Of a DNA stretch of 64,000 bases, positions 28,397-59,907 are shown piece after piece. Each line of letters starts with the position of its first letter. Position 1 is the stretch's first letter. The DNA is from Amblyornis subalaris (taxonomy: Eukaryota; Chordata; Aves; Passeriformes; Ptilonorhynchidae). The position numbers were made by a program, and so were the translations under genes. The stretch lies in NCBI GenBank assembly GCA_018881555.1, contig JACAXG010000009.1, forward strand, positions 12,299,326-12,363,325, in the 5' to 3' direction. The notes under the pieces are model-generated. The model had not been told where the DNA came from and made no database searches. It was given only the letters and a program-made list of their open reading frames with translations.

Positions 28397-28586
28397 AAAA
28401 TTAATTTCTGCATGTTTGCAGATGCTAAATTAGTTTCAATAAATAACAACAATAAGGCTGAAATCTGTCAACATCTTGACAAATATTCAGAGAGCTGTTT
28501 AGTACACGTTTATAGTATTCATTGCTTCTAAAAGAGAAAATGATCATACAGTAACTAAACCCTAAGTAAGAGCTAAAGATATTCAC

Positions 28587-28803
28587 CTCATGAAGCCATT
28601 TCTCAACTAGCCCCTTGGCACTTGCTGGAATTATTCGCAGCACGAGCTCTACTTTTTCATTTTCTGCTGACTCCATGTGGGTAATTTCTCTCTTGTGATT
28701 AAAAGTGAGCTTGTCAATTCCTTCAAAGCATTTCTTTAGGTGTGGTTGGACGTGGAGTGGATCCTTTGTCTCAAAAAGGATTCCTAAGAGATCATTGCTG
28801 CAT
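28587..28803 (-). pseudogene. Dynein heavy chain (DNAH) linker exon, last recognisable exon
   Basis: This exon encodes part of the N-terminal linker of an axonemal dynein heavy chain, the microtubule motor of cilia and flagella. In order it shows SNDLLGILFETKDP, VQPHLKKCFEGIDKL, EITHM, ENEKVEL and GLVEKWLHE, matching the family pattern SND-LLEILSETKDP, VQPHLKKCFEGIAKL, ITHM, E-VEL and VEKWL. The usual upstream FFFL next to SND is replaced: a pyrimidine tract with CAG at 28818-28820 leads into a disturbed frame, while a second AG 14 bases on (TTCTCTAG) restores it and drops those residues, so the start chosen is the frame-keeping one. The donor is GAG|GTGAAT, but the frame also reads on for 53 codons to a TAG at 28425. 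DNAH1/3/7/12-type is the closest class by eye. The family call is secure, but functionality is doubtful. Confidence 0.9.
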
Positions 28804-28909
28804 CTAGAGAAAAAAACCTGAAAAATGATAAAAAATGAACTTTAGAGGTATTTATATAAACATATTTTACACCAACACCAACAGCAGACAGATGAAATGG
28901 ACTGTTTAC

Positions 28910-29069
28910 CTTGGAAAGAATAGTCTTTTCTTTGCCAGATAATCATTCAAGGCCTTCCTGAATGTCATCCAAAAGCGATTCTGCCTCCTTCAACTTATCC
29001 GGCATCTGGGGCTGTGAGATAACCCTCGTGGCATTGGTCTCCTTCACTGACTCCTTCGTTATTAGCCTC
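28910..29069 (-). pseudogene. DNAH linker exon with a one-base insertion
   Basis: Acceptor TCACCCACCAG and donor CCAAG|GTAAAC bound 160 bases that read RLITKESVKETNATRVISQP, then MPDKLKEAESLLDDIQEGL, a shift, and NDYLAKKRLFFPR. The last block is a hallmark of the dynein heavy-chain linker (family: GLNDYLEKKRLFFPR) and leads directly into the exon at 28803. The shift comes from one extra base near 28950 (GGCCTTGAATG where GGCCTGAATG would stay in frame). Without that base the exon would be 159 bases and keep the same entry and exit phases. A true disabling mutation or an assembly error in a short homopolymer are both possible. Confidence 0.9.
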
Positions 29070-31792
29070 CTGGTGGGTGAGATAGAATACAGTGAATGTA
29101 ATAACCATACTTCACACAACAGGCTCTCTCTCTCTTTTAAATTGAAAATCCCCTTATTACAAAACAAGGGGTGTTCTTTTTCTTCTACCTTTAAGTAGGA
29201 CTGCCACATTCATTGCTTTTTACAAAAACGCAGCTGCTTTTTAAGCTACAGATAAATAGAATCTGCTAGGCAGTAATTCTGCTCAGTCTGAATGCATTAT
29301 TTTCTAAGTCACTTTGTTGAGGCACTTTTTATTATGAACCGGAATGAACAAGGAAAGTCCTTTTCTCAACTAATTATGACTATGCTTTGTTCTATACTAT
29401 TAACTTACAATGCCAGATTGGTCAGCTTTTTTTTTCTTCCTTCAACCAGTTCAACAAATTACCATGCTTTCTCTGGGAAATTAGAGAGCTAATTATTAAG
29501 ACTTTATAGACTAATGATGAAAATATAAATAACACCGAACAACAGTGTATCAATAACATTCACACAATCCCTTTGATATGCACAGTGCAATCTCCTATTT
29601 TAACACCAGTGATGCATGGACAAGACTTACTTTGACTCAATCTACGGAATTTTCATCTCATAAAGATTTTTTAAACTAGATCTTTTCAAATTGAGGAAAA
29701 AGCATGAAACACCATTTTTCATATACCTATCCCTGGCACATGTTTTGTTTTCCTATTATTGTACTCCCAATTTATGAAAATCAGGAATGACAGAATAGAA
29801 GGCAAAGCTATAAAGACATGAAATCAGAAAAACATCAGGACTTGTGTTGTTTCCCACTGTAAGACATAATGTAGTGTGTTTGATTTGAAAAATACTTGTG
29901 GTTTGTTTATTTTTTTTTTTTTAATTAGCTGCTTTAAAGACTAGATTAGTTTGCAAAGAAGAGTTTGATATTCCTCAGTAACACCAAAAACTAGAACATA
30001 GTTCTGAGGTGTTGGGGCCTTCAGTGATCTATAATGCTTGGCTTTGACAATGTAAAACATACTAAACTATATTCCAAAGTGGACAACAACACCTTTAGCT
30101 TAATGGTTGTCCACACAGAAACTCCAAAAAACTAAATGTACGCATTTAGATATCACTACATAGTTCCTTTTATTTAACATATACAGTGATGAACAGAATT
30201 CAAATAAATAAATAAATAAGAAAAATCCTTTCTCCTTAAAATTAATTTTCAATACTTTTGAGCTGAAAACCATCAGTATGGTAGAAAAACCTGTAGAACT
30301 GGTTCTGCCCAGCATTTGGGTTTGCAAATCAGAAAGAATCCTGGAAATAAGAACTTGTTCAGCAAAAGAAAATTCACATTGCCACCATCTTAATATTCTG
30401 TTTGCATTCAAAATTGTACCATTCCTATGTATTTCTGTCTGAAATATTATGGGGGATATTAATTGTACATTTTTCAAGCACCTACTGTAAGAAGACACAT
30501 ATGTACGGCCAACAAGAGTGCCATTGCTTTGAGATCCTAAAACTTGCTAATTCCATGAGGCATTTCCCAGTCCTGATACACTTGGTAAACTATGGACCCT
30601 TTTGGGTTGCTTGTCTCCATATCTAGAGACCAACCTGAATGCTGGAGTATCAGGAAAAGCCTAATTCATGCAGACTGAAGAGCAGCTGGTTCTACTGAAA
30701 AAATAACTCTACATGTATCAGTGGAGCTTCCAAGATGTGAAAGTAAATGAACACATCCACACAAACATTTATTTAACTTTATTTTAATACCAAGCTGAGT
30801 GTTCGTGTACACTCTAATATGTCGCTTCAAATTATCTCTGAAACAAGGACACTATCCACCATACTGCCAATTTAGGTATGTTGTCTTTTGTACTAAACTT
30901 TTAAAGGAATTTTGAAATGCTTGATTAAAAATTTATTCCTGCTTGATTAAAAATATAACTGTATCTGTCAATTTAGCAATATTTCTTTTCATGAAGTGAC
31001 AGCAAGGACACTAAAAAAATAACTGTGAATGTGAGAAAGCTTACCAATGTGGGGTACTGTTTTTCCAAAATTAATTTCAGAATTAAAGTTATCCTCAGTA
31101 ATTTTGTTGAGAATGCCATACTTCCAGGCATGACAGGCCTTCAGATTACTGATTATCCCACTTTCAACATGGCTAGTATCAATGGTGCACAATACATTTT
31201 GATTAAAAATGAACCTATTTCATTTTAGCTGAATCAATTCAAGACGGTGAAATAGTCAGATTCCACCCTGTGCTCATCCTCTGCTGAGCACTCACTGAGA
31301 GCTTTTCACAGAAGCCAAGGTTATGGTACAAAATGATTGAGTGACTTGACAAACATTACAGCCCTAATAGAGGCCCATTTACATACAGGGGCAAGATCTA
31401 TAAACTCCCAGTTTTGTACTTTGTCCATCTGACCATGTTTCCCTACACTTCAGAAGGGAGAATCAAAATGAAGATGCATTCACAAAAAAAAAAAGAAAAA
31501 AACCAAACCTCATCTCTTTACCAAACCATTTTGTACCTACTCCTTTCCCTTGCTACTGTATGTAAGATAGCTACATATGTCTTCCAATGTATTTCTTCCA
31601 TTATGGAAAGCAAGTGTTTTACAGGTGCTTTTAGATATGCATACATTTTGAATATTCTGCAGGTCATTCAGTAGAAGATCAGATATACACCTAAACACAG
31701 ACTTAATATTTCAAGGAAGAGAGAGCAGCAAAGGCCAGTTTTTATGACTTTCAAAATCATTTAAGAAATATTTTGCCAAAAATGTTCTTTAC
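29070..31792. other. Intron-like sequence; expected dynein exon not found
   Basis: In related dynein heavy chains an exon with a DEWL...WLYLEPIF segment lies between the two flanking dynein exons. I looked on the minus strand for the corresponding pattern and did not find it. The rest is AT-rich, with no recognised repeat. The minus frames at 30100-30498 and 30989-31192 have no family match. Confidence 0.55.
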
Positions 31793-31921
31793 CTGTTTCC
31801 AGTTTTACTTCTTGGAGTACAATGAGAAACAAAACGTGGTTGTTTGCCTTTGTCACTTGAATGATTCACTAACTTACTGGGAGGCTGTGTCTCTATTGTT
31901 TCTGAGCTCACATCATAAAAA
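31793..31921 (-). CDS. Candidate internal coding exon, unknown gene
   Basis: A 129-base open segment has acceptor TTCTATTTAG and donor AACAG|GTAAAG. Read with one leading base it gives FYDVSSETIETQPPSKLVNH and, after SSDKGKQ, PRFVSHCTPRSKTGN: hydrophilic, Ser/Thr/Lys-rich and unlike the dynein linker. It occupies the place where a dynein exon would be expected, but shows no similarity to it. Both ends split a codon as AG|N. The entry phase fits the short CpG-island exon at 48334-48368. The exit phase fits both the candidate exon at 13912-13972 and the dynein exon at 28910-29069. I favour a separate minus-strand gene running through the dead dynein region, but cannot prove it. Confidence 0.35.
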
Positions 31922-32127
31922 CTAAATAGAAATCAATTTAAAACAATGAACTTTAAACTTTACTTTCCCCTAGGTATTCTAAAGTGGCACAGCTAAGTTG
32001 TAAAACTTTTAAATAATGGAAGTCAGTGAAGCCTAAATCACACACAATAGTGAAAGCTGAGATGTGAGATGGAGATGAAATCTAAAAGCTAATTAAATTC
32101 AACAAGAGCCTCTCAAAGGCAACATAC

Positions 32128-32225
32128 CAGCTTAGCCTCCCATGCTAACATTTCGTTTCGAAGGGTGCAGTAAATGGAGGGCCTTTCATGGCTGCAGATT
32201 TCACAATATGATCCACCAGCTAAAC
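32128..32225 (-). pseudogene. DNAH exon (family LLDDHI motif), frameshifted
   Basis: Acceptor CTCCCCTCTCAG and donor GCTG|GTATGT bound 98 bases. The main frame reads LVDHIVKSAAMKGPPFTAPF, matching the family signature LLDDHIVKTQTMRGSPFIKPF, then continues FETK and stops. A one-base deletion near 32155 separates it from the second block, MLAWEAKL, which matches family AWE-KL. The second codon after the first acceptor is TAG; that AG could itself serve as an alternative acceptor (GTTTAG|CTGGTG), so the stop alone is not decisive. The frameshift is relative to all family members I know. Confidence 0.88.
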
Positions 32226-35200
32226 CTGAGAGGGGAGAGAAAAAACAGATTAGATGCATGGATTACTGTACTGAATAGATGCCAAGGCCAAGATAAAAAG
32301 AATAGATAAGTTAGGGCTTCTGAGGAGCTAAATTTGAAGCCAACCGGCAAAACGGATTGAACTTTATTACCTCTAGTCACTGAGAAATTCCCTAGACAGT
32401 TGGATGTAATTTGAAAAGGTCAGAAAAAAATTTCCTTCACAGTATTATTGCTTCATGGTTTAAGGGTGTACGATTGTGAGATGCCAGCTCTAATCATTTT
32501 TATTGACTTGCTCTAGGGAGACAGACAGATGCACAGGGAGTCAAGACAGACGGATAAGACATATCCTACCTTCGTTTCCAGTTTTAAAACATATCACAGT
32601 ATTAGGTATGTTTTAATGTTAATCATTTCAGTTTATCCTTTGCCATATCTGAGCAGAATATGCTGTGTTTCTCTAAGACAGCACAGAAGGGGGAAGGGAG
32701 GGAAACCCTGTGCATAACATTGGAAACTTGCTACAATTTTTCATGTGTGATCTGAGCATTCATTGAATTCCACGTGAATCTGAAATACATAACTGAAATT
32801 CAGTAAGTGTAATAGGATTTTCTAGATATTTTTAGGTATGCTCAGTTGATTTTTTTTTCACCTAAAGGGGAGCAGATCTTACTGAATAGATTGTAGGAAT
32901 GACCTTCAGCATACTGACAGTACAAGCTTTATTACCAGTGTGGCTGTCTTGGGGGAAAAAAACCCCCAAAATACAAAAAAAACTCACAAAAACCCAGAAA
33001 ACAAATCCACCCCAATTAAAAGCATTTAATTCTTTGACTTAGCATTCACAGATGCTTGTAATCAAATATGAACATTTGCTAACATTACACTTACAGTCAA
33101 TTTTTTTGTCATGCAATGAAAACCAAAAGAGATTTAAAAACAAAAAAGAAGAATTATCCAACCCAACCCCTGGAAAAGTTTAATTAACATTAGATTTTCT
33201 TTTGCTCAGAAGACATTTTTCTTCCATTCATAATACAAGCATGTGTATTCCCTGTATCCTGACTCTGACTGCACCGCAGAGGCAATTTTAATGGCCATTA
33301 AGGTACAGCGCTGTGAGTTCCTCTACTGCATTATGTTTATAGACCCCTTCTGCAAGCTGACTAAACCTGTTTCCACTTGGATAAGAAAGCCATTTCCATA
33401 TGGTCATATTCCCTCCTCTCAAGCCCTGCACATGAGAGCGTAACATGAAATTGCAGCAGAAGAGTCGCATATATATGTTCAGTCCCTCAGAACTTTATAC
33501 CTCTGAAAGGAAATCAAAAAGGCTTAGCTGAACTGAGGAACAAAAAGCACCAGGAATTGTTCCACTAATGGCAGCTGATACTTTCAATTGAAATGGACTT
33601 CTCCCGACAGAAAAGATGCATGGATGATTAAACGTAACACTTTCTTCAGCAATTTAGGAAGCTTTTGAAAGAAGACAACTGCACCTGTATATATGGAAAA
33701 GAGGCTCGGGAGAGATAATCACTTACTAGATTTATAACAATTCATTTAGACTCTACTACTCTTATTTCTTTTAATCAGACTCCCACTGTCAGCTTCAGGA
33801 TGATACTGAAACTCAAATAGGAATTTAGTTTTTTAAGATCACAGATGTGTAACTACAGAGGAACCCTCCAGTTTCTGTGGCAGCATGACAACGTTGTGAT
33901 TTTTATTCCTGTTTTTTTCAACAGAAGGAGCGACAGAGAAATTAAGTTCTGTCGTCCTCCTGACTTAAGGTCAAAGATGAACTCACATACCCTATCAATC
34001 TTTTTCCCAACGCCCCCCCCCCCACCATTCATCATGAAAAAATGTTTGTTCAAGACACAAACATTTAATGTTAGAACTCAATTTTCCAAAAATATTCCTC
34101 CATCAACATATTTTGATGCCATTTGCAATACAGTAATATGATACCATATGATTCCATGTTTACAAGATCCTCACTACTTTTGCTTCTGTTCTTTTTTTGC
34201 CAGTCTCCTCAAGGGCAGCACATGTTAACAGACAAGTAACTTAAACCCTAATTCATTGTACCATATGTAGAAGGAGTAGATCTTTAAGATGTTCCATATG
34301 ACATTCTTCTCACTCTAAGCTAAAACACATGTGGGAGAAGCTGATTCTACCTAACCCTCACACACAGGTGACAACACTCTCCACCTTTTTATAATACTTT
34401 TTATGATATTGTTTGTTTCCCATATGATTATTTGCCATGCTGATGGTAAAATTGCACAAAATTCAAAGAATTGCTAACTTGCATTGTAACAATAAGTTTA
34501 GTTAACCACTGAAACAGTTTGCTCAGAAAGGTGAGAAATTTTCAGTTACTTCTAACCAGGATTTCATTTTAAACAATACTCTCACAGTTCAACACAGTTC
34601 AACAAAGTTGTTTTGTTAGGTGCAGGAATCACACTTCTCTCCTTTCCAGCCTTTCAATCTAAAGGGTTGCTATCCAAGTGGAATGCCAGTTGGTGTAACA
34701 GGATCACCTCCCAGAAACCAGTAGGTTGTCTTCCTTTCGTCTTTCTATGTGTGACCAGGAGACTGCAATTTTATATATATTAAATTTGAAAATAAAGACC
34801 TTGCAATTCTGTGTCCTAACAATGAAAGAAATTGTAGCTGCCTTTGTCTTGTGAACACTAGATTACTTAAACCTATCCAGCATGTGATTTTAGCCAATTG
34901 AGAAAACCATGAATCCACACAATATTTTTTTTCTATTGGAAGCACATAACCCTGAGAGCTACAAGACAGGTATTTGCTGTAAGGTCTTTCACTCAAATGA
35001 ATTGTCCCCTTCATTTCTGATACAAAGACCCTCCTCCCCATACAACTGATACCAAACTAAAATGCCATTTGTCTCTCCTGACCAACATCCAGAGTCCTCA
35101 CAGAACTGGAGGAAGGGCTGCATTCTCGTATCTATTTTACCAAGACTAGATGTTTCCCATGTACTCCCATGTTTTTCGGATCAGCAGATATGCTTAAGCT

Positions 35201-35264
35201 GTATCCCTCTTCCTAAGATGAAAAAACCCAAACAATACAATAACCCCCACAAAAACTAAAACAT

Positions 35265-35284
35265 CCCCCCCCAAACCCCTCCCC
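35265..35284 (-). other. Potential G-quadruplex motif
   Basis: The minus strand reads GGGGAGGGGTTTGGGGGGGG, giving four or more G tracts with loops of 1 to 3 bases. It meets the usual sequence rule for an intramolecular quadruplex. It lies in otherwise A-rich DNA with no gene nearby, so any role is unknown. Confidence 0.6.
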
Positions 35285-35719
35285 AAAAAAGCTGGCTTCA
35301 GAGCATGTCTCAGACACAATCTTAGTTTTAGATGAGCTCCAGTGTCACTTCAACATGCAGCAGGCCATGTTGCTCACATACATAGCTCACACTAAAGAAT
35401 TAGGTAACTAATTTACAGATGAGCAAGAAACTCTTGAGAGATGGATATGAGTACCATTACTAAGATTAACTCCAATAACCAGTGTTAGGTGGTGGCTACC
35501 AGTTTTACTACTTCCAAGTACTCCAACAGGTCTTCTCCTTTATGAATGGACTAGCTACTGAAAAAGGCTAGTGAGCTTCTTTGTTTGTTTGTGTTCTTTT
35601 GGTTTTGCTTTTTTTGTTAAGCTCAATATAAGAAGTTCCTCAAAGGCACAAAAAATGTTTCAGCATCTTGCATCATACTGGGACAGCTAAATCTGTTTTG
35701 CATTCTTCAGAATATGTCC

Positions 35720-35777
35720 AAATATTCTTAAATGGTCTTAAAGGTCTTTTCCAAATTAATGATTCTATGATTCTGTG
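35720..35777 (+). mobile_element. CR1 3'-terminal scrap
   Basis: The segment ends AATGATTCTATGATTCTGTG and is preceded by GGTCTTAAAGGTCTTTTCCAA, matching the last bases of an avian CR1 in plus orientation. Only about 60 bases are recognisable, so it is an old, very short 5'-truncated insertion. Confidence 0.75.
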
Positions 35778-37050
35778 TCAGTTAATCACTTAGTAAACAT
35801 TTACTTTATCTTAAAAACCACTCTGTGATGTGTATAATTTGAATCTGTCATTTTTTTGCTACACGAAAGAAATACAGCACTCTCAAAGAAGACTGCAATA
35901 CACTTACTAGATGTAATGTTTATGTCTTAAATACCATCTAATTCTTAAAATAAATTAGACCTTCTGAAAGACATAGGGAAAAAAACATCCCACTGTTGCA
36001 GTTACTATGCATAATAGTATATTTTGCCAAATTCTCTCATGTGAACACTGATTCAGCTCCCAGCTCTAATATCGTTAGGCTTAACATCTGACAAATTAGG
36101 TTTGAGAACAATGGAATGCAATTAAAATACTTATGTACTGCAGCAGAAAGAGATAACATTTCATGTATGTTTAGTGGAAAGAAAGAAAGAGAAAATCCTT
36201 TCTTGATATTAAAGACATAATGAAGGGATCTCAAAAAACATACGTAGGTACAGGAGGAATTTATAACTGAATTTTCCTCTCAACGTTTCAACTAGCAATT
36301 CAGTGTTGGTTGATCACATGGAGAATGAAAACCTGAACATTTGAATAATCAATAGTTGCTATCACTTGAATTTTTCTGTTTCTAAGATGAAAAGTGAATA
36401 TATATTTCCACTCAGCAGTTGTTTTAAAAGCATTCTCTGAAACACAGTCCTTAATCATTTGGGCCTTATACTTTGAACTTTAAGCCTTTCACCACTTTTC
36501 TAGAGTAAAATTTCAATCAGCAATCAGAAAGCGTCTTTATTCAGTGTATTGCTGAAGCCTCTCCAAGTTGTACTCACTATAAATAATTATTTAATAAAAT
36601 TGAATGACAATTTTTGTATTTTTTTTTCTTTTTATTAGAACAGGTTTCAGAACCCAGAAATATAGGTGAGTAAACTGCTTGGCTGTTCTACAAAATTATA
36701 ATGGAGATGCAGCTAAGGTTCTCCTCATGCTGTTCGTCATATCATCAAGCAAAGTAGAGTTTATGTAATGCAATACAGACGCCACAGGTTTCTTTTTCAA
36801 ATTTTATATTTGTAATAGATGAATGTCCCTTTTTTAAGCCTCAGATTTCACTCTGAGTGAAGTTGACTCTCTATGGGCTCTACTCCAAAAATTTAACTCT
36901 AAAATCATTTAACCATAGTAGTTGTGGTAAGAAAACCTCTTTTTATGGCCAGACTTTCCTTAACATCTATCATTAATTTAGAGACTCGATCATTTCTCTA
37001 ACGCAGTTTTGGAGAATTGCTTTTGGCTTTCTGTCCTGACAGAGCACTGT

Positions 37051-37158
37051 CATATGCATATATGTGTATATATATGTGTGTGTGTATATATATGTATATG
37101 TATATAATATGTATATGTAGATATATGTATGTATATATGTATATAACATGTATATATC
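37051..37158. repeat. (TATG/TATA)n microsatellite
   Basis: About 108 bases of alternating TA and TG steps (TATATG, TGTGTG and TATATA blocks) are interrupted by a few substitutions. It explains the Tyr/Ile/Thr-rich open frame on the minus strand, which is not a gene. It may be length-polymorphic. Confidence 0.9.
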
Positions 37159-40100
37159 CATAAATATATTACACATTACAAATAAAACCCATGGTGAATG
37201 GTCAGGACCAATTAATTTTACTTGGTACTGTACAAGCAAGAGTGGATACACACCTGTTGCCCTGAAGAGTCTTCCATTTAGTTAAAAACTATAGTGTTTT
37301 GATTATTTTGTAGCTGTCCATGACAGCCTCATAACATTTCAGTATTTGTTCACTTACAGCATATTTGTCTTTGACAAACAAACACAATTAAAATGGTGCT
37401 GTTCATATTTATGCCTCTCCTCTATGTCATGCTATTTATATGAATGGGTGTTTTTTTTCCTTTATTTGTATCAAAGTAGTACCTGAAGTCGCCAGCTTCT
37501 TGCAGCACAGACTAGAACCCACCACATTCTTCACTTTTCTCCCTCAGAGGCCTTATAGTTGAAGTTGGAAATGAAAGAGAAACAAAGTGACTTGCCTAAA
37601 ACCTTTCTTTTATTCCTCCTTCACACATGCATGAACATACAGGGGTTTTTTTTAAAAAAAGAGATGAAAGAGACCTTCTAGAAAATACATTGTATAAGTA
37701 AGGAATCAAAGTTCACACTATAACGAGGAAATGGGGAAAGAGTTAATATTGTGCCTAACACTAGAGCAAGCTGACATTGTTGGAGGCAGACTCAAGTTGT
37801 ATAGGTACAAAAGGAAAAGGACAATCAAAGCAAAAACATTTTAAAGTTATACAACCTAAATGGCTAGGTAATGATAATATCAAGATTTGATTATACACAT
37901 CTGAGAGCTCATGTGCTCAGAAGGAAATATTTTGTTGCACTGGGAATTGGGCTGAGTCTTCCTCCTTCTTTTCAAAAGTATAATTTCCATTCTCCTACCC
38001 AGAGAGAAACTTAAAATAAAAATACTGATTTAAATACAGTCTGATACTACTCTGGAGACTAATAAGCATACAGATAATTTTCAGCTAAGAGAAAAAGAAC
38101 TTCTTTGTAGGCTATTTGCAAAAATATATTGGTAATTGTCGAAAAATGCTCCAAATGTCCCAACAATGGTCAACCAAAGTAGAATTGTCAAGAAAATGAA
38201 GAGAGAGAGGGTGAGAGTTTCGATAAATTTCCTGTGTGATCTTTACAGCCATTTTGATGGGCTATGCATTTGTACATGCATACACATGACTATGCCAAAT
38301 GTAGAGAGAAAGACACTTGGTATACTGTGCAAACCACAACTTTCAGACAGGCTTTTTCACTAGTCTAAATGTACTTAGGCATATTTTTATCTGGTCTTGC
38401 AATTTTCTTTCTGAGAATCTGTAGGCTTGGAAAAGTCATTACTCAAAAATTGTGTCTCTTATAGTAGATATTCACACAAATGAAATGCTCTACATTTATG
38501 GCAACATAAAAATGCCACACACAGATTGGTTCATAACTGCCACACAAGCATCAGTCAGTGCATACGAACACACTTAGCAAAGAATCACACTAAATACAAA
38601 TACACATAATGTTTGTTCTACTTCTTAGTTTTCACAGCTGACAATTAAAACCTGAAATAGTTTGTTAACAGACACTCTAATGTAAGAAAACTTACTGTCT
38701 TATGTTGAGGCTTGATTCATTTAATGACAATTCTGTCTGAAATAGGAGCTGGCCCAAAGTATGTACATCATAGGTTTACACACTTGCACACTCACACAAA
38801 CACACATACACAATATCTGCCAGAAAAAAGAGTTACAGCATCATTGTCATCAATAGATGACATAGATGGAGGAAACACAACAATAAATGAGGGACTATCG
38901 AGGAGACATAGTAAGAATGGAGCAATGCCAGGGTGAAAAAAAGACAAGAACTGTCTATCTAATGCTATCAACAAAGGAGCTAATAAAGCTATCTAAGAAA
39001 GGAATTTATTTAAATAGCTTGAGTCTTCCTTCCTGAGCATTTTTCTGCACAGACATGGACAACTACACAAAAAGCAAAGTATCTCTAATGTGACACAGAA
39101 GACAGTACTGACCTACTCTATTTTTCCTTCTCTTACTATCTTATGTAGTTTTAGATAGTTGAACGTAATTTTAGATTAAAATCAGATTATTTGTAATTAG
39201 TGTAAAGAAACACAATAGGAACAATTTAGTCTGTACTGTAGAATAGAAGAAAAATTTAGGAAATATAATTTAAAAGTAGAATTAGCAAAGACCAGTTATG
39301 TGAAAAAGAAGAAATTTTTAGTTACCAGTGTTGATTTGATGTAATTTTGCAGATAACACACAGTTATTATACTTGCCTTTTTGACATACATATGGTCGCT
39401 TGTAATATAGACATGAAGTAAATTAATGAATGAAAAATTGTAGGTTGGAGCTGAATTTGAGCAGAAGAGAGATAAGAGCATCGAGTGGAGAAAAGCATAT
39501 GGAAAAGTTCATCTAAAAAGTGAATGTGATTCTGTGATAGCACAGAAATGGTTGATCCAGCAGGAGTTTGCAAGACTTTTTGAAATCTGTCCTCACACAA
39601 GACCCTTAGAAAAAAATATTCACCATTGGTGATAGCACTTCCAGATGTCTAGAGTAGCCTAGTAGATAAACACACTTTGATTTCGCCTTTCAAAGGTAAA
39701 AGAACTTTTATTCAGGTGCATAGCACTACTCACACGCTATGAGGAAGAAACTGCAATTGCAATATGATAAAGACCAGACAAAAACTCATGGCCAGCTCTC
39801 TTCTTTGAGTTGAAGAGAAATAAGATCAACAAGAAAAATCAAAATTATCCAAATTGTGTATCAAGCATAAGGAGAAAGGGACAGAGATGAAAGAGGATGA
39901 GGGTAAATGTCGAGGTAAGATACAGTCATAATACAGAAAGAGAAGTCAGAGTGAACATAAAAATAGAAACTGGACTATAAGAGAAAAGGAGCCTGAAGAA
40001 GAGGGACAGACAGAACCCGGAAGAGACTAGAGGACTTCACTTCTGGCAGGGCCCTGAAGGAGTTTTTAAACAGGAAACCTTCACACCAATGGATACTTTG

Positions 40101-43100
40101 AGCTGGAACACAAAAGAGAAAGAATGTGTTATATATGCTTCCCTTTTTGGGGGGGAATGTTAATTGCATAATGTTATACAATGAACTTCAAAAATAGAGA
40201 ACATTTAATTGTGCAATAGATTTAGACTAGAACTGGCTTAAAAAAAGCTCAAGTGAGTAACTGAGCTGTAAGTTCTTTTCTGTAAATGAACTTTAAATTG
40301 TTTCTGTAAAGTTACATCAAAAAGACTACTTCAGAACACATCAGATCTCAAAATTTTAACATTAGAAATTAGAATAGATATAAAAAATGTAAAAAATTAT
40401 CTATAAAAGCAGAAGGTGCTTTTTGACTTGCACTCTACAAAAGATTTCCCAATATGGCAATAGCAGCCTCCTTGTTTTGAGAAGTACCTTGACAAGACAA
40501 AGAGGTAACCCACAGAGCCAATTGCTTGGAAGACCAGAAACATTGCTCTGATTTTGCAACAGAAAAAAACTGGAATCCACTGGAAATATCAGAACAGAGA
40601 GGATGTATATATATAGTCACTCAACTCATTCACAGAGCAGAAATCAAGACAAAACAGTGCCTCATCTTTCCTTACAAGTCAACCATGTATGACAAGAATT
40701 ACAATAATGTGGACTGCAAAATAAAAGTCAAAAAGCATTTAAGGAGGAGATAAAGAGAGTCTTTTGGCATTAGCGACAACTTGGTCTTTCTGTTGTAGAA
40801 AAAAAAAGTGAAATTCAACATGAATGTTTAAGTAAGGCACAAGACAAATGAGTTCAAATCAAAGATACACATAAAGAGTGCTAGAAACCATTTCCAGTCT
40901 TAGATGGGCTTTTCCCTAAAAAGATACGTAGTGTCACTACCTGATGCAGGGATGTAAAACCTGCAAGGTGCTGAGTGACGAGGGGGACTCTCCTTTNCTT
41001 TTCTTCCCCCTTGATTCATGTCTGCAGTTCATATTAAGTACATTTCATAAGAACCAAATCTCCCAGATACTTCAGATCTTTTTATGAGGGTGCTTACATC
41101 CATAACTTTCACATGTGCTTTAAAGCATTTCAATTCCATTAGAGCAAAAGTGATCTATTTTCCATTGGAATTTGATGTCTACTCACTTTCATTGATGCGG
41201 AATTTCTTGAGAAATAGTAACAAAACCAGCAATTAGTCATTACACTATTTTGTCTTTTCCTGTGTGATTTTTTGTCCTTCTTATTTGAGGGTTGACTGCA
41301 CACCTCATAAGTTTTAATTTATGATTATTTGGTTAATTTATGGGGAAACTAGTTAATTTTGGAATTAAAGTGCAAAGCCTAAAGAAAGATATAATCCTAA
41401 TAATGTTATTGTATCTCTTTACAAAGAAATTTTGTAAAAATGTTGTACAAATGCATAGTTCAGGCACAATGCGTGTTGGGTGTCAGAAGATATCAAACAG
41501 ACCTTCAGTTTGTTGGATGGAAACAAGAACCTGTTGCAATGCTAGGTCAACTTTTGCAGCTGTGTTGTATAGATGCCCTGAGTAACAGCTGATCAACCAA
41601 CTGAATTAAAGGCTTAGAGAGGTAGAAATATCATTTAGTTTTTGTATGTTCTCACAAATAATTTGCCTGCTATTGCTGCCACCAAGGTTCTGGCCTAAAC
41701 TTCTATTTTGAAGGCCAAAAGCAAATACTTCAGACTTCTTTCACACTGATTTTTCTCTCAAATGATGGTTGAGTAAAGGTCAAAGTTTGGAGGGACTTTC
41801 TACATCAAGTGTTGGCTTTCTTAAGACCTTCGTGTGGAAGTTGCTACCTTATTTTCTTTGAAAAAAAAGGCCTTGGCAGATTCTTTTAAACTACGGGTTA
41901 ATGCATTCCTTCTTTCATCTACCTGTTTACTTGAAGATCATCACTTCCCAAAAAAGCTCGTCTATGAATCTTTCATTCCAGAAATTTGCTAGTGAGAGCA
42001 ATCACTGGATGCAAATTCTCATGAGTTTTTCAAGCTCCATCTTAAAACTAGTTTGGATTTGTGCATCTGTCTCTTTCCCGTTCTGTGTTCCAGAAGTTGA
42101 TGCTTCTCTCTCTTTTTCTCTTTCAGTTACTCCTTGCATAAAGAAGTCAAGCTCTATTGAGGGTGGTGAAGTACTTGACATTAAATGGTCTAGTACAACA
42201 TTTTATGACTCAGAGCTCCTGATAAATGTGATTTATTAGGGATAAAAGCTTTTTACTAGGTCAGATGTCTGGACTGAAGAGACAGTTCATTATAGTGGAT
42301 CACTCATATTTAGCAATGTAATAGGAATGAAGTGATTCTTTTATCATAGTGGTCCAAATCTGACTTACACCACTACTGTTCTCCTCTTCACCCGGAGTTA
42401 ATTGTCAGCTGAACAATGAAGGTACCTGGGACTAATTTATTTAGGGATATGTTCCATCTGTAAAGCCTATACTAATGGAGTACAAGAGGGCATGACTAAA
42501 GGATTCAGGTATAAAGTTTAGGACCTTAGATAATTACTTGCAGAAAATATTATCAGCTCTACATGTCAACTTACATAAAAACAGAACTATTGAACCTTTT
42601 GAAAAAGCAGTATTGTGTTCACAAAACTAAAGTAACCAGGACAACTTCTATTCACCATAACTGTGGAATAACAGTCAAAAGAGTTCCCTCTCCCATTGCA
42701 ACACACAGAAGAAATGTGTAGATTCTGATCAATTTAGATCAAAAGATCTGACACCTTTTATAACTATAACCATAGCTACCTACATTGAACAAGGACCACT
42801 ACAAATACCTTGAGAACATCTTTGAAAGAACTGTCCAAATAGAAAAAATAGAACATTACAACTCTAATTATTATTTTGGTACAAATAGGCATAGTACTTA
42901 CAACCCTTGCTTTTCATTTTGTCAAGACATTGTGGGAAAAGATTCTGATAGAATTACTGAGTTTCACATGGGAGCTGACCTCTGAATATTTAAGGTCTGA
43001 AGCAAATGAATAAATGGGTTGAAAATGGACATATGCTATATGGCTGCTGATCTATATTAAGAACATTTATGCTCTAGATATTCTTTTGTACTACTTTAAG

Positions 43101-43540
43101 GCTTATTTACAGTTTTGTATCCAGCTGAAATACTGAGGGATTAAGTGCATTAATGGAATACCTAAATCTGTGCTGTTCTAGATAAAATTAAGAAAATAAA
43201 TTGTATTTGTGTTTCGCTACACAGATTAATACAATTAAAAACCTTTCCATGACAATCAGAAGCATATAGCCCAATTGTCCTCTTATATAAAAAGCTGGGT
43301 TTTTTTTTTTGTTCTTGCAAAAGGGAGAATCTCTGTTGTTGCAAAAGATCTGTTACTGAGATCTGTTTAATCTTTTTGTTATTTGGTTTTATTATGTTTA
43401 CTATCTAGCCTTATTAAATTTGCAAAATAGCTTGTTTATCTTCATTCTGAGAAAGTAGGTGCCTAAAATTTGCAAATATGTCGGTCAAAAATAGACCAGT
43501 TAGATGTTCTTGGCTGGCACATTGTCAAGGCACACAATGA

Positions 43541-43610
43541 GTTCCTCCCTCCTCCTCTCTCACATACACATGCACACACACACTTCTTTCTCTCTCACAT
43601 ACACACACTC
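43541..43610. repeat. CT/CA-rich compound microsatellite
   Basis: Interleaved CTCT and CACA runs (CCTCCTCTCTCACATACACA, then CACACACAC, TTTCTCTCTC and ACATACACACAC) form a compound simple repeat of about 70 bases. Confidence 0.85.
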
Positions 43611-46600
43611 AAAAATGCATCCAGTAGAGTAAAATATTCACATTAATACTGGAAGCGATGGAGAAGAACCCCGGTCGACATCCCATCTGTTCCCTTGAAT
43701 TAAATTTAGAATTCATATGTAATATAGACATTTCTGTCTGAATATCATAAAGCCCTGACACATTCAGGCTTTCATTAAAAAGCTCTGAGATGTGACTTGA
43801 ATAACAATCTGTCTTAGCTAATTAGTATTTTCAGTTTAGCATATTCACTTTCAAACGTATTGCTGTTTGCACATGGTAATTTAGGTAAACAGAGCCCATC
43901 CACAGCTGCATCAATTAACACTGCTAATCAAAACTGAATTCAGGTAATTAGGCACATTTATGCAAAAAATGTGTAATTTGTGGGGAAAGCTAGATTCTTT
44001 AGTAATATTTCAATAAGTAGGAGTCTCTTTTTGCAAATAAGGCAAGAAAATAATGGTAAATCAGCTCTAACATGTACATGATGCATAGTCAGTCACAAAT
44101 ATCTAAATTAAATCTCAGTAATTGGTCTGTATTTTCAGAAATTGGACAATATTTTTTTCATATAAGTGTTTTCCTCAGTGTTCCTACATAAAAGGGTGGA
44201 TTCATTTCTGATGAAAGTTTTAGCAATTTTAAAAGTTAATGTTTCCTCAAGCAGTTTTTGAACTGTTGAATATGGTGGTCCAACTTGTTCTCATTTTCAG
44301 TTGGGCAAATTTCAATGAAAAAGCCCTCACTTCATTTTCAATTTAATTTCTTCAAAGAATGTGTATTTTTGTTTACTTTAAAGAAAAGCTTCTAGAAATT
44401 TTTACTACCATCTATTTCAGGAATGTAAAGTAGCAAATACTTCAAAAATATTCTGCCTTGACCTACAAAGTTTCATATCCTTTACTTACCTTTCCCTCAC
44501 CCAAACCAGAATTTGAAACCCTCCAAAAACTAAAAAAAGGACCCCAAACCAAACATTTAAGCAGCCTAAGAAACTGTGTTCATCGGGGAATTTTAATTTC
44601 TGTTGAAATGGAACGAAGGAATGTTCATTGTAACACTATACTTGAAGAGTTTTCATATGCAGCTATTCAAGTTATTCAAATTCAATTCCCTGTTATGCAC
44701 ACTTTCAGAAAGCTACACAAGCCCGATGAACAAAAAAATGCAATTATCAACTTGCAGCTAATTTTCCATGATAAAAAGAAATACCTAGGCAATTGCTGAT
44801 TTTTAGCAGAAGCCTAAATTTAATCTACTATTTTTGTATCTTCTCCCTGATTTGAGGCTAACTCTGAGCTAGGAATATGCAATATGTTTTCATTATGTGC
44901 AGATTTGCAACATGCAAAACATAGCTTCTGCTAAAAACATCACTGTAAAAAAAAAATTCTTTACAACTTTAAGGTCTAACCCTACATAGCTATTGAAATT
45001 GCAGAGTGTTTTGCAATCATATGTAATGCAGTGCATATCTCACTATTCAGAAACTTTTCTCTATATAGAAAGTTGTGGTTTGTTCCATTATAAAATTATT
45101 TGAAAAATGCTGCAGTTAAAATGGTCTTAAACCTCCAATTTTAATTTAGCTATTGGCTGAGTAGCATATTGAAGGAATATTGACAAGAGAGTTCAGAAGA
45201 AAAGTAAAGCGTGCGGAAGGAATAAAATTCTGAAGTATTTTCTATTCAAATAATCACAATGACTACTGCTAATACTAGAATGCTGAACAAGATAATTTCT
45301 AAACAATTATCAGACCAACCTAAAAGTATATGCAGTTCCCTATGCCATTCTCACTGGGAGAAATAGTGGCAGCAAACAAGGTTATAACAGCACCTTTTTT
45401 CCATTTCTTTGTTGCAAAAGAGAAACACTCACCTATATGTCATATCACATGCTAAGCACCTTGCTGGTCTCCCATGCGACTTATTAACACTGACATACAG
45501 TGAAGATCATCAAAACAATCTAATGTGACCTGTCTCTGGAAGAACTTGCCCTACTTGATAAATGCTTTCTCAAAAGAGCAAAGCAGAAGGTGTAATGACT
45601 AACAGTGTTTATTTTAGATGTTATAGGCTGTAGGAAGTGAGTACAGTGACAACATCCGAGCCTCCCCCCTCCTCCACCACCCAAGTTGTTATTACATTTT
45701 TGCCTAAAATAGTCACATATAGTAAGTATTCCAACAGACTTTCCAGAAATATTTTACTACACTGCCCTGTCTCTTCTGCCTGACTCCCTCAGTAAATATA
45801 AGCAGAGAGAGTTAGGAGAATCTCTCTGCTGAACACATATATATGTAGCATACCTTATTACTTCATCATGAATTTTCCTGGTGCACCACCCATTTGAAAA
45901 TTTTATATCGTTCTAGAGTATCATTATTTCATGCAGTTTGGAAGGATTTTTTCTGTTGAAGTTTAATAAATGTATGGTAGTATTAGCTGATAACAGACAA
46001 GGAAATAATAGCTATCTCAAAAAAGAAAATGCTATATATGAAAGTTGGCTGGTACAATAGGCATTTCTCACACATGCGGCTCCATTTTTTTCTTCTTCTG
46101 TATTGTTCTACTGTAAAATAAGGAAAAGAATTGAGGCATCTTTCTACTAAAAAAAAAATTTAAAACTTGGATGTTACATACCAGCTTTTGTTAACTAAAA
46201 TACAATGGATATGTATGACTAAAAATAATATATAAATACTGTTTTCCTCAATTTAAAGAAAAGTTTCATCCTGCTCCAAGCACTCAAGAGCATTCCAGAA
46301 TTATAAGCAAAACAATAACTATTTAAAGTTTGGATTTATTTTCTCCATAGAGCTTGCAATTCATTATTCATAACATAAAAACTGTTGAAATGCTTCATGT
46401 CCCTGGTATTCACATGGTTAATTCAAGAACATGCAAAAATTTTTAGTCTGAGAAAAGCAAAAGCAAGAGCCAAAAGCCAACAATTAGTACTCTACACCTT
46501 ACATGAGGAGAAAAAGCTCAATAATTTACAAATGTTGAAGGAAGAGCTAGTTCCATAATTAAAAATCAGGCAAAGATCCTTTTGGCAAATGGATCTCTTT

Positions 46601-48180
46601 GTTAAACATCCCACTAATCCAAGCCTGAAGGTATAATTCAGTACCCTGGAGGATCCCCTCTATACTTTTGCCAGCTGTTCCATTTAGGTCACTCCACCAC
46701 AAGTTTAGCTTTTATCTATTCCTCACTTTCTTCACTGGGTCCCAGAAGCAGCAACCCATCTCTCTGAAGGCTGTNTAAAGTGTAAATGAAAAGACGAGAC
46801 AGAAGTGAGCTGCTACCTCAGGGTCCTTAATTTCTGAACTGCAATTCCTTGGACTTCCCTACCTTGACAGATGCAATATGAAATCTTCCTTGATGAAAAG
46901 TGAGGAGATAAACTGAATATGGAATGCAGATGGCACATTCATTATCATTTTAATGCCTTGCAGCTGCATGAAAGAATAAGAAATTTTACTAGGCAGAAAG
47001 TCCGCTCAAGACCAAACAGTTGCAGCAGCCCTTCTGCTCTTCAGCCCAATTCCCAGCACTACTGCTGTTGTCATGCAAGAAAAAGCCTTCAAAGAGCCAT
47101 TTTATCTCTTCTCAGGTGGTCAGGGAGAGGTGGATTCAAGGAGAGGAAGTAGAAATAAAGGCAAAAAAAAAAAAAGAAAAGAAAAAAATCCACAGTAGTC
47201 TGATCCAGTATAGTGTATTCCAAAGACCATGAACAGTCCTGGGTGCAGACCTGACCCACTTGCCTCCCTCTCCTGGACTGGCTGGTGAAGGAAGGAGACA
47301 GTAAAGCTTGAAGGGCTTGTTTATGCAAGTTAAACCAAACTCAAGAAACAAAATTGCTTCTAATTTACCACTATTTTGGTGCTTTTAAGAAACACGTAAT
47401 TTCCTAACAAAAGGAACAAAAATATGTGAACTAGATCCATTTATAACGGTTCTAGTCAGTGCAAATTTAAGCCCTCAGAGAGTCATTAGAGTCCTCCAGA
47501 ACTACTTTTAGACAGTATGCTCTTTTATAACAACACCATGATCTCTTACTCTGGGAAATTTTAAGTGTAATTCATTCTAAAACAAATCACTGCCCTGACA
47601 TTCATTTGTCTGCTAAATAAAAATAAAGAGTAAGGCAGATACTCTGGGAGGAATTCCTAAGTGTTCAACTTTTAATGAAAGATTTATAAAAAATGCAGTA
47701 AGGGTATTGCTCAGGTCTTTCGAATTTAATATTAAGCAATAAAGTTTGCACATACAGATATGAACTGTAAAGTGAAGCAGAATTATTAAATCTATTGAAA
47801 ATTAACTTTCTAGGTTTTTAAATGCTGTTCAGTAGCATTGCCACAGCAACTCTAACAACCATCTGCAAGACTTTACACATGCAAGTAATCCCACAGGCTT
47901 TAGTCAACTCCTAAGATCATGTCCTGATCCTACCCATCCGGCATGATGTTCTGGCTACAGCCTAAGAAACCACTTGTTCACACTTGTAGGAAGGATGGGA
48001 ATCACAACACTGAAGCAGCGCAGTGATTCACACACCTGCACTCAGCCTGCACTTGAAGAAGTGCTCTGTCAGTCAAAAAGTACAGTTCTGCAAGCTCGTA
48101 CATCTGACTTTTAAGGATTAGGGAGAAGGAAAAAAGAAGCCAAAGAACAGCATACACGCAGCTTTATTTCTAATTGTGCG

Positions 48181-48299
48181 ATGGCTGGCACAGGTGAGCA
48201 AGCCAGCTTCGACGAGCTGCCTCGTGAGGCCGGGCAGGGACCCTCACCTGTGCCGCGCTGCCCGTGCAGCGTCAGCCGGCTCGCGGTCTCCGCTGGCAG
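48181..48299 (+). CDS. Candidate first coding exon from the CpG island, plus strand
   Basis: ATG in good context (GTGCGATGG) opens MAGTGEQASFDELPREAGQG, then PSPVPRCPCSVSRLAVSAG, reaching the donor GGCAG|GTAAAG with two bases of a split codon left over. The upstream 60 bases would be the 5' untranslated region. The exit phase fits the plus exon candidate at 50426-50564, giving SAG-R-LNYEF. G+C-rich DNA stays open by chance in several frames, so the peptide itself is weak evidence; the start context, the donor and the phase match are the arguments. There is an earlier GT after ACAG at 48193 that could also act as a donor. I recognise no family. Confidence 0.3.
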
Positions 48300-48333
48300 G
48301 TAAAGCACATCCACAGCGATTCGCACCGCTTAC

Positions 48334-48368
48334 CTCGCTGACGTGCTGCCACGCACTCCTGCCGACAT
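48334..48368 (-). CDS. Candidate first coding exon from the CpG island, minus strand
   Basis: ATG in good context (GGAATGT) encodes MSAGVRGSTSA before the donor GCGAG|GTAAGC, a near-ideal splice site, with two bases left over. The region upstream on this strand (48369-48515) is the CpG-densest part of the island, where a start site would be expected. Its exit phase fits the exon candidate at 31793-31921 (SA-S-FYDVSS). No known protein with this N-terminus comes to mind. The overlap of opposite-strand candidates within one island fits either a divergent promoter or a single real direction. Confidence 0.3.
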
Positions 48369-48515
48369 TCCTGCACGCGAAGGTTCACTGCAGCCAGCCG
48401 CTCTCAAGTTCAGCGTCCCCGTGGCACGGCTGCTCCGGCGGGAACGAGCAGCGCAAAGGCAGGTTGCCACCGGCCGGTTCTACCGCAGCCCGGCCGCGCG
48501 CTGTCTGCAATCACA

Positions 48516-50425
48516 TCTCACTGAGTGCAAAACGAAAATTAAAACATTTTTTTCTCTTACACTTTAGAACAGTATGCTGTGTCATTTGTGTTTGCATTTA
48601 AATTGGACAGAATAATTTACTACTGGCTTTTAATTTCAGAAGGGTTAATCACCTCAGCAAAGGTCAATCAAACTTTAATCTCCAATAAAATTGCAGTAGC
48701 TTCAGTCACCTGCAGGACATTTATTATATTCTTATTTCCATGCAAAAGGATGCATCGCTAATCTTCTAATTCTTTACATTAGCACATTTGCCATTAACAT
48801 TTTACTAAAATTATTAATTCCTCCAAAACTATTACAAGAGCTCATTTCTACACATCTCAGAAGATAATCCTGTTAAAAACCAGACACATCCACTGTGACA
48901 TTGCTTTAGTTGTCTGCTCTAATCCTCACAACCGTTTGATACTCCAACCGAGTTCTAACAATGCACAAAGTCTCAATTACATAAAATATTACAGGCCTTA
49001 GTTTAGAACAACAATATACTGTTTTAGTAACTTAATCTTCCCTATTGTCTGCAATCACAATACTAATCTATTTTGTCACTGTTCACAGCATTTTCTATTC
49101 AAGACAAAATATAGATTTTTAATTTTGCTTAGCAGCTGTTGAAAAGCAGTAGATTTACAAGGATAAGTTAAAACCTAAAATCCATTACCAAGGATAGGAA
49201 TAATAATGATGATAGGAATATGTTTCAGGCCTGCAAAGAAGTATTTCCTCACAAAACAGAAGTCTCTTTTGGGGTATAACCCATTAAAAAACGAAGAAAT
49301 AATACTTTAAAAAAAGTAGCTCGTTCTTTCCATTTTATCTACTAATTAAGAACAATTTATCTTCTATTAAATTGACTGAGAACTGCAAAATCTCTCTGAA
49401 AAAGTCACATCAGGATTAGCTTTAAATTACCATTGCAATAATATCAGCTTAAAATGAGAAAATTATTTAACTCCGAACAGAAAATTGTCAAATACAAATC
49501 CCCCAAAAAAGGGTTTTAGATAAACATCATCTATGCTAGCTATTCAACAACACATTGCTTCAAAAGTCTACTGTAACGATTCCATCTGAATGCTCATAAC
49601 TAGTTTACCTGTAAAGATACAGAGAAAAGCAACAGAAAACTCAGGGAGAGCTTGTTACAGAACCAAAACACAATGCAAACAATTCAGTGCCCGAATTTTA
49701 GAAACTGGTACCAAAAAGTAAAAACTACTTGGGCAGAAAAAGACCAATACCACCAAAATAAATGGGCCCCCCTTATCCTCCTACCATGGCCATACTAGCT
49801 CCTGCAAGAAAGAAATCTCATGTCTATTTAAAATGGATTTTTTAGCCATAATAACATTTTGACATACCGTAATGTAAATAAACTGTTCTTTCCCATCCCA
49901 ATATTTCCTTCTCTGTCTCTCTGTCTCTCTCTGTCTCCGTTTCTCTCCTCTTTTTGTTTTAATATATGGCACACAGACAGACACACGCCCCCGTCACTGT
50001 CAATATGCACACTCATTAGCAATATGTCAGGCTGGCATTTTCAACACACTCCAGAGCATAACTGAACTACCACACAGCACACACACACACGTTAAAATAC
50101 AATTGCAGAGAAAAAGAGCTCAATGGAATAATTTTTAACTTGGAAAACTAGGTAAACACACAAAAGGAGTGAGATTCTCAGGCAATATTTTACAAAGGTG
50201 CTGTGAAGTGAATCCCCAGCTAACAGCATCGATGCTCCTCTCCTTTAACACACACAAATATACATATATAAAAGAGAGCATTTTAGCAAGACATTCTAAC
50301 GCTGAATTACGGATGCAACAACACAAGTTTTTCCCGGTTGTTGTTTTTTTTTTTTTAATGCCTTGTAAGTTACATTCTAACTTGAAGTAATGTATGAAAA
50401 GAAATACTGGAAAACATAAATCCAG
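48516..50425. other. Non-coding stretch downstream of the CpG island, conserved-like
   Basis: About 48560-49560 lacks repeats and is dense in ATTA, TAAT and Oct-like words, with the composition typical of conserved non-coding DNA beside developmental promoters. This is a visual impression only. Simple repeats at 49909-49950 and 50080-50090 follow. No exon was found. Confidence 0.4.
49909..49950. repeat. (CTGTCT)n-type microsatellite
   Basis: A run of CTCTGTCTCTCTGTCTCTCT and similar units forms a polypyrimidine simple repeat; an acid/base-rich open frame on the opposite strand is a by-product of it. Confidence 0.85.
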
Positions 50426-50564
50426 GCTGAACTACGAGTTCCTAGAACATAGACTTTCAACAGCATTTGTAGTCCTTCCAACTGAGGAAATTAGCTATGA
50501 AACAACTGCATCCGTATTTTGTGCAGAAAGCATCTGGCGAGACACCGAAGACCACTTAGAAAGG
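50426..50564 (+). CDS. Candidate internal coding exon, unknown gene
   Basis: A 139-base segment ends in a strong donor, AAAGG|GTGAGT. With one leading base it reads LNYEFLEHRLSTAFVVLPTE then EISYETTASVFCAESIWRDT and EDHLER. The amino-acid mix is protein-like and four CpGs persist in AT-rich surroundings. The acceptor AAATCCAG is weak because no pyrimidine tract stands directly before it, though a long T run lies about 75 bases upstream. The frame is also open back to an ATG at 50394. Entry phase fits the CpG-island exon 48181-48299 and exit is on a codon boundary, which would fit the candidate at 61619. I recognise no family. It lies only about 200 bases from a dynein stem exon on the other strand. 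Confidence 0.35.
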
Positions 50565-50767
50565 GTGAGTATCACTGAACTTGCTCTTCGATTATTCACC
50601 TTTTGACGCATTGATAAAACATATTCTAGATTGCTATTGCAACTGCTTTAAAATATGACAGAATAGCTTCATGTGACACCCCGAAATGAAAGGTATCATC
50701 AAAGGACCATGTACTTCATTTTTCAAAAGAACTAACAGTGGAGAAATGTATAGGGAAAGAAACATAC

Positions 50768-50971
50768 CTTTAGTTATCCCAGCGAATGACTTTTCAGCAC
50801 ATCTACATAGTCCCGCGGCTCCACCAGTACAAAAGTCAACACTGCTGCGCTTGTGATCTCTGTGACAATGGCATCATACTGACGGCAATTTTTTCGATTA
50901 AACTTCTCAGACATGGTAGCAACTTTGTTAATTATGATATTAGCCAGCTGGCGGGTACAATCAATCATCCA
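50768..50971 (-). pseudogene. DNAH stem (tail) exon with an in-frame stop
   Basis: Acceptor CTTTCTTACAG and donor CTAAAG|GTATGT bound 204 bases (exactly 68 codons) that read WMIDCTRQLANIIINKVATM, then SEKFNRKNCRQYDAIVTEIT and SAAVLTFVLVEPRDYVDVLK. The block around NRKNCRQYDAIVTEIT...YVDVL fits the family stem pattern N--C--FE-I--KA...ELMELK-YVEKV, located N-terminal to the linker, so the exon is in the right order on the minus strand. A TAA stop lies in frame at 50774-50776, two codons before the donor. Several CpGs remain. Family assignment here rests on a short, divergent block and is less certain than for the linker exons. Confidence 0.6.
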
Positions 50972-59788: not shown

Positions 59789-59907
59789 CTGCTTGTCCCT
59801 CGAATGTTATTTACAATCACATCTTTTATTCTTGTTTTAGCTGACAGGACAATCTCCTCAAGGATCTGGGCAGAGCAGATATATTTGATTTTCAGGTTAT
59901 CTACTGC
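59789..59907 (-). CDS. Candidate internal coding exon, possibly dynein stem
   Basis: Acceptor TTGTATCTGCAG and donor AGCAG|GTTAGT bound 119 open bases reading AVDNLKIKYICSAQILEEIV, then LSAKTRIKDVIVNNIRGTS. It is a well-formed amphipathic, Lys/Ile/Val-rich stretch that looks protein-coding. It starts on a codon boundary and leaves two bases over. Its place upstream of other stem candidates suggests dynein tail, but I do not see a specific family match and it could belong to another minus-strand gene. No disabling mutation is visible in it. Confidence 0.45.

Follow-up and report, generated by a model that had tools for sequence, protein, structure and literature searches.

Three conserved regions of the long non-coding RNA gene RMST in the bird Amblyornis subalaris coincide with remnants of dynein heavy-chain exons

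The window analysed here, a stretch of 64,000 nucleotides of the passerine bird Amblyornis subalaris (C715:12299326-12363325, within a genome of 1.08 Gb), carries the gene for the long non-coding RNA (lncRNA) RMST, host of mir-135, and within it a series of broken exons of an axonemal dynein heavy chain. The sequence was inspected directly and by tblastn. The exons, the RMST regions and the mir-135 hairpin all lie on the minus strand, and residues are numbered according to the DNAH3-like protein of Xenopus (P0015).

Five exon remnants were identified in the window. The first, at 59789-59907, corresponds to stem residues ~608-648; it is open and shows 78% identity to Discoglossus over 41 aa. 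The second stem exon, at 50768-50971 (residues ~711-784), contains an in-frame TAA at 50774-50776, two codons ahead of its donor. The first of three linker exons, at 32128-32225 (residues ~1098-1131), contains an in-frame TAG at 32220-32222 and a frame break near 32155, where the tblastn matches stop at 32157 and resume at 32154. The next, at 28910-29069 (residues ~1179-1231), carries one extra base near 28950, with matches in two frames overlapping at 28949-28959, and the last, at 28587-28817 (residues ~1232-1308), is open, with 87% identity to Discoglossus across the aligned 91%. Each of the five exons has an AG acceptor and a GT donor. The share of the protein expected in the window is residues 608-1308, of which 264 of 701 are detectable; most of the dynein gene is gone. 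The original prediction, made from the letters of the sequence, had described the last four of these exons in N-to-C order, with their splice sites kept, the TAA and the two frame lesions, as a disabled inner-arm-type dynein heavy-chain gene, and all of this was found again. Its list of exons missed the TAG, the first stem exon and the remnants that lie outside the window on the same strand.

Rfam models placed RMST_6 at 50769-50970 (136.4 bits), RMST_7 at 48591-48854 (204.5 bits), RMST_8 at 28910-29048 (125.4 bits) and RMST_9 at 28586-28778 (186.9 bits), all above the gathering thresholds. The mir-135 precursor hairpin (25881-25965, 84.9 bits) lies inside the RMST gene, in the intron that follows the third linker exon, so that the four regions and mir-135 stand in order on one strand. 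RMST_6, 8 and 9 terminate on exon ends or one base away from them, RMST_9 being the 3' 193 bases of the last linker exon. No Rfam match was obtained for the exon at 32128-32225. RMST_7, a conserved non-coding region, gave no match in the tblastn search with DNAH3-like proteins and sits in a former dynein intron. The locus is the RMST lncRNA gene, and what is added to the known gene is that its regions 6, 8 and 9 are dynein exons. RMST is described in passages of PMC4822265 and PMC2926783 as a brain lncRNA and, in mouse, as the host of mir-135a-2, which the former places in the last Rmst intron; passages of PMC2926783 also report the cloning of a chicken Rmst cDNA with four exons, and RMST is said to bind SOX2 (PMC10415337, in part).

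The extent of the dynein remnants was determined by tblastn with 12 DNAH3-like proteins against the window plus a 100 kb flank on each side (264 kb). There were 130 matches at E<=0.05 in 11 places, all on the minus strand, while the same 12 proteins reversed gave none at E<=0.1 and two at E<=1 (0.12 and 0.48). The exons of the window are thus true dynein remnants, and the stem and linker content assigned to them originally is borne out. At E<=0.1 the number of places rises to 13, the two additional ones having E values of 0.054 and 0.058; three weaker places (E 0.37-0.56), of which one lies on the plus strand, were left out of the count. The 13 pieces follow strict N-to-C order from residue 127 to residue 1842 over 178 kb. 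Whole-genome searches added an open piece at C715:12150800-12151045 (72%), from a search in which 18 of 263 candidates were scored, and an AAA_8 piece with one TAA at C715:12118521-12118685, and with these downstream pieces the fossil spans about 284 kb. The former, a motor exon 72% identical to coelacanth, is surprisingly well kept outside the known RMST regions.

In the 264 kb, 662 of the 4207 residues of the full protein are detectable. An AAA1 piece at C715:12247863 was found by Pfam too. The AAA1 exon outside the window has apparently lost its AG acceptor, its boundary having been placed from the neighbouring piece. Several pieces outside the window contain stops or show only 41-56% identity. 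There was no Dynein_C match on C715 among 45 matches in the genome, and no frame runs open from the stem to the C-terminal domain, being interrupted by stops, frame breaks and missing exons.

These observations bear on the two explanations offered by the original prediction. Consensus errors of a draft assembly that break a working dynein gene might be suspected from the single-base N's scattered in the flanks, but whole exons are absent, several outside pieces are degraded, the AAA1 exon apparently has no acceptor and the region is a known lncRNA, which leaves this explanation with a negligible probability. That the lineage of this bird recently lost an inner-arm dynein gene is hardly more credible. 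Some exons are indeed open and well alike, above all that at 28587-28817, but of the window share 264 of 701 residues are left, RMST_6-9 are reported as conserved across birds in passages of PMC4378963, and the mammalian RMST has the same exons, groups with the bird sequence in the tree and shows no third-position excess against it (see below). Since the RMST regions match here, the remnants are neither a recently lost bird gene nor an assembly error.

The identity of the dynein was examined with the 77-residue linker exon at 28587-28817, which gave 2021 protein matches, 120 of them listed. The best 30 of the 120 are all from non-amniote vertebrates (frogs, lungfish, chimaera, sharks, rays, coelacanth and paddlefish), with 69-87% identity, and most bear the name 'dynein axonemal heavy chain 3-like' or a similar one. 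Lungfish, chimaera and coelacanth each have an additional DNAH3, at 64-69% on this exon, and DNAH3-like and DNAH3 are therefore two separate genes. The frog DNAH3-like proteins reach 82-87% on the exon, compared to 59% for a DNAH7 chain; in the sequence search of solved structures, DNAH6 chains scored 28-29 bits and DNAH3 78 bits. Of the other DNAH families that had been proposed for comparison, DNAH3 is excluded by the tree, and DNAH12 has its own locus elsewhere in this genome.

Over all remnants, in alignment columns selected for matching DNAH3-like of Xenopus, a choice that favours this family, the bird row shows identities of 0.60-0.63 to five frogs, 0.65 to coelacanth, 0.50-0.66 to five cartilaginous fishes, 0.56 to lungfish, 0.52 to paddlefish and 0.46 to lamprey, and of 0.39-0.42 to nine vertebrate DNAH3 proteins. 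The bird's own DNAH3, DNAH12 and a third paralog (C648b, perhaps DNAH1) reach 0.49-0.52 on 121-299 shared, mostly conserved columns.

A tree of 44 rows and 631 columns, with DNAH7, DNAH6 and DNAH14 left out, joined the bird RMST with the mammalian RMST consensus (support 93/84), and both with the five frog DNAH3-like proteins (99/98). The vertebrate DNAH3-like proteins, including that of the lamprey, were held together at 100/99, and the nine vertebrate DNAH3 proteins formed another clade with the bird DNAH3 (95/97). The weak points of the tree are its long outgroup rows, the poor placement of lungfish (43/17) and bird DNAH3 (20/0), and the grouping of coelacanth with cartilaginous fishes (95/86), contrary to the species tree. 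For each of four invertebrates (two acorn worms, a starfish and a sea anemone), one copy falls within the DNAH3-like clade (99/100) and another falls outside it, which makes the DNAH3-like paralog far older than vertebrates. The tree and the identities indicate that the dynein source is a separate DNAH3-like paralog and not DNAH3.

A pseudogene copy of the bird's own DNAH3 or DNAH12 was considered as well, these being the nearest paralogs in the genome on the linker exon (54% and 55%, respectively). It is ruled out, for practical purposes, by the separate loci of both genes and by the tree, which places the remnants with frog DNAH3-like and outside DNAH3; moreover, the remnants have retained introns. 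The four pieces of the bird's own DNAH3 are 80-92% identical to DNAH3 of two songbirds, 73-89% to that of Acanthisitta, 65-73% to lungfish and 61-77% to newt. A DNAH7 linker stretch searched against the same assembly (C648:12467038, C226:7609753) found DNAH12 (77%), DNAH3 (75%) and the RMST fossil (59%), and this search found no separate DNAH7 exon. Either the assembly or the lineage may lack DNAH7.

The distribution of the coding gene was examined with the stem (residues 420-1100 of P0015), which identified 101 proteins at E<=1e-10 among 4908 candidates; this search covers annotated proteins in a limited length range, so that shorter broken models would escape it. Proteins were called DNAH3-like at about 40% identity or more, and the tree covers these rows only in part. 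By this call, DNAH3-like proteins are present in frogs, lungfish, coelacanth, cartilaginous fishes, paddlefish, bichirs, gar and lamprey, as well as in tunicates, amphioxus, echinoderms, acorn worms, molluscs and other invertebrates. An intact coding ortholog thus exists in outgroups such as frogs, lungfish and sharks, and the coelacanth protein (P0019) has at least 2592 residues. The only amniotes named among the 101 rows are three birds, at 29-37%, and these proteins are DNAH3; no DNAH3-like protein of an amniote, be it bird, reptile or mammal, is found among the rows listed in the linker and stem searches. Amniotes probably have no whole copy of an inner-arm-type dynein that frogs and sharks retain. 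Teleost rows stand at 31-32%, and no salamander or caecilian is named among the 101, which suggests further losses of the DNAH3-like gene among vertebrates (teleosts, salamanders, caecilians).

Constraint on the protein was assessed by counting differences between the bird and the Rfam mammal consensus by codon position; for RMST_6 and RMST_8 the count was confined to the ungapped 5' parts (141 of 203 and 96 of 143 bases, respectively). In RMST_9, 20 of 193 bases differ (codon positions 8, 8, 4), of which four fall in the last 109 bases; in the 5' part of RMST_8, 8 of 96 differ (2, 4, 2), and in that of RMST_6, 21 of 141 (4, 10, 7). Nucleotide identity in the compared parts is 85-92%. The pooled counts are 14, 22 and 13, so that third positions account for 13 of 49 differences. 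This agrees with what a sequence free of coding constraint would show (p=0.36 against one third) and departs from a coding sequence (P=2e-6 if 60% of differences were in third positions and 7e-4 if 50%, both shares being assumed). Protein constraint, whose estimation had been proposed originally, was thus not seen. The absence of a third-position excess shows that it is the nucleotides, not the protein, that have been conserved. RMST_9 was also considered as the source of a small conserved peptide, its frame being open in the bird; this was rejected, since the mammal consensus carries a UAG and codon positions show no constraint.

We consider it probable (about 0.85) that the dynein-derived exons of RMST are exapted exons of a unitary pseudogene, namely the amniote ortholog of DNAH3-like, the paralog of DNAH3. 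Several findings weigh against this. No RMST_1-5 or RMST_10 was found above gathering by Rfam in the 200 kb of flanks. The mammalian row of the tree is the Rfam consensus, not a species, and comprises 145 residues. The 3' part of RMST_6, outside the codon count, is visibly less alike between bird and mammal. Finally, a lesion common to bird and mammal was looked for in RMST_6, 8 and 9, and none was found: the bird has the TAA in region 6 and the extra base in region 8, and the mammal consensus a UGA in region 6 and a UAG in region 9, with region 8 open as far as translated. A common inactivation is therefore not proven, and a loss in the amniote ancestor rests on the codon positions and on the absent amniote proteins.

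The unshared lesions and the open mammalian region 8 would also fit a history in which the coding gene of the amniote ancestor already made RMST and the protein was lost later, separately in mammals and in reptiles and birds. The third-position count of 13/49, however, leaves little coding time after the split, and no amniote DNAH3-like protein is among the rows listed, so that we regard separate losses as distinctly unlikely. Rather less unlikely, but still the weaker account, is that the dynein exons were kept as DNA, as enhancers, and that their presence in RMST transcripts is incidental. Enhancer selection is proposed for most such fossils in passages of PMC5577775, and RMST_7 is equally conserved though not of dynein origin. 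Against it stand the agreement of RMST_6, 8 and 9 with exon ends to within a base and the splice signals kept in all five exons of the window, the former point being weakened by the fact that the Rfam regions were themselves drawn from transcripts.

Under the unitary-pseudogene reading, the embryonic brain would have transcribed either the dynein gene itself or a shorter RNA that began within it, and miR-135 would have lain in one of the gene's introns. The protein would have been lost on the amniote stem, while transcription, the splicing of some exons and the intronic miR-135 were retained, presumably owing to a role of the RNA, the miRNA or their regulatory DNA in brain development. The exons would now work as RNA or DNA sequence and not as protein. 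Their splice signals would persist through continued splicing into a non-coding RNA, and we infer that those kept in this bird reflect such splicing still going on.

The RNA may be older than the death of the protein. For coelacanth, which has the DNAH3-like protein P0019, PMC8704543 (in part) reports RMST_6 and RMST_7, and the non-dynein RMST_7 therefore seems older than the protein loss. A wider history can be put forward tentatively, at somewhat less than even odds: an axonemal dynein paralog that bilaterians and cnidarians had inherited from their common ancestor would have ceased to be a protein on the amniote stem, its gene living on as RMST; in lobe-finned fishes the coding gene would already have been traversed by the neural transcript, with its intronic miR-135 and RMST_7, so that RMST would have begun as a by-product of a cilium-motor gene, with its neural role established before the protein died; and the 'RMST_8/9' of invertebrates would be dynein coding exons.

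The last element concerns genome annotation. In an Rfam run on 13 overlapping dynein loci of this bird's own genome, the RMST_9 model matched coding DNAH12 (43 bits, E 6e-4) and DNAH3 (40.7 bits, E 1.6e-3), and the RMST_8 model matched a coding DNAH3 exon (38.6 bits, E 4e-3), all below gathering; the loci at which the two models pick up DNAH3 and DNAH12 coding exons at 38-43 bits are L003 and L007. In genomes that lack RMST, such matches are likely to lead to false 'RMST' annotation. Passages of PMC8704543 report one RMST_8 and seven RMST_9 in a tunicate, and both regions in all deuterostomes; tunicates were among the animals with DNAH3-like proteins in the stem search. Invertebrate 'RMST' loci, and the published RMST_8/9 of all deuterostomes, are probably matches to coding dyneins, and the same probably applies to RMST_8 and RMST_9 model matches outside amniotes in general, which bears on the claim of PMC8704543.

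Two observations concern the remainder of the window. A TA/TG-rich simple repeat at 37044-37174 gave weak, chance-like Rfam matches to mir-297, mir-1277 and mir-466, below gathering. A tRNA scan found none.

RMST is a deeply conserved neural lncRNA whose origin is not given in the literature found. In open-licence literature, supplements and subscription papers being outside the scope, no statement of a dynein origin of RMST was found. PMC8704543, PMC10415337 and PMC11766336 mention both RMST and dynein, with no dynein origin stated in the parts available, and the available main texts of two genome-wide surveys of lncRNAs that arose from dead coding genes (PMC5577775, PMC5644071) mention neither. 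An lncRNA from a unitary pseudogene is a known kind; what looks new is that RMST belongs to it, how old this case is and that a dynein was its source, although all of this may be known elsewhere. If the core exons of RMST are old dynein coding exons, the origin of RMST becomes testable.

Compared with the known RMST lncRNA, host of mir-135a-2, the locus has the same four regions in order on one strand with mir-135. The set of regions 6 to 9 is the one reported across birds, in the human order (PMC4378963, in part), and no difference from the known bird RMST was seen. With the DNAH3-like dyneins of frog, lungfish, shark, lamprey and invertebrates it shares collinear exons, 60-63% identity to five frogs and a sister position in the tree; it differs in that most exons are lost, stops and frame breaks occur and the C-terminal domain is not on the contig. 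DNAH3, DNAH7 and DNAH12 are the nearest families in the search of solved structures, but DNAH3 and DNAH12 have separate loci in this genome and DNAH3 is also a separate clade. The closest parallels in kind are the lncRNAs XIST, FTX and JPX, likewise unitary pseudogenes whose loci survive as spliced lncRNAs (PMC5577775, in part). Unlike these, RMST is common to bird and mammal, and hence older than the mammalian cases, and its source is a ciliary motor. RMST thus adds to the lncRNAs derived from dead coding genes a case shared by birds and mammals that is older than XIST and JPX.

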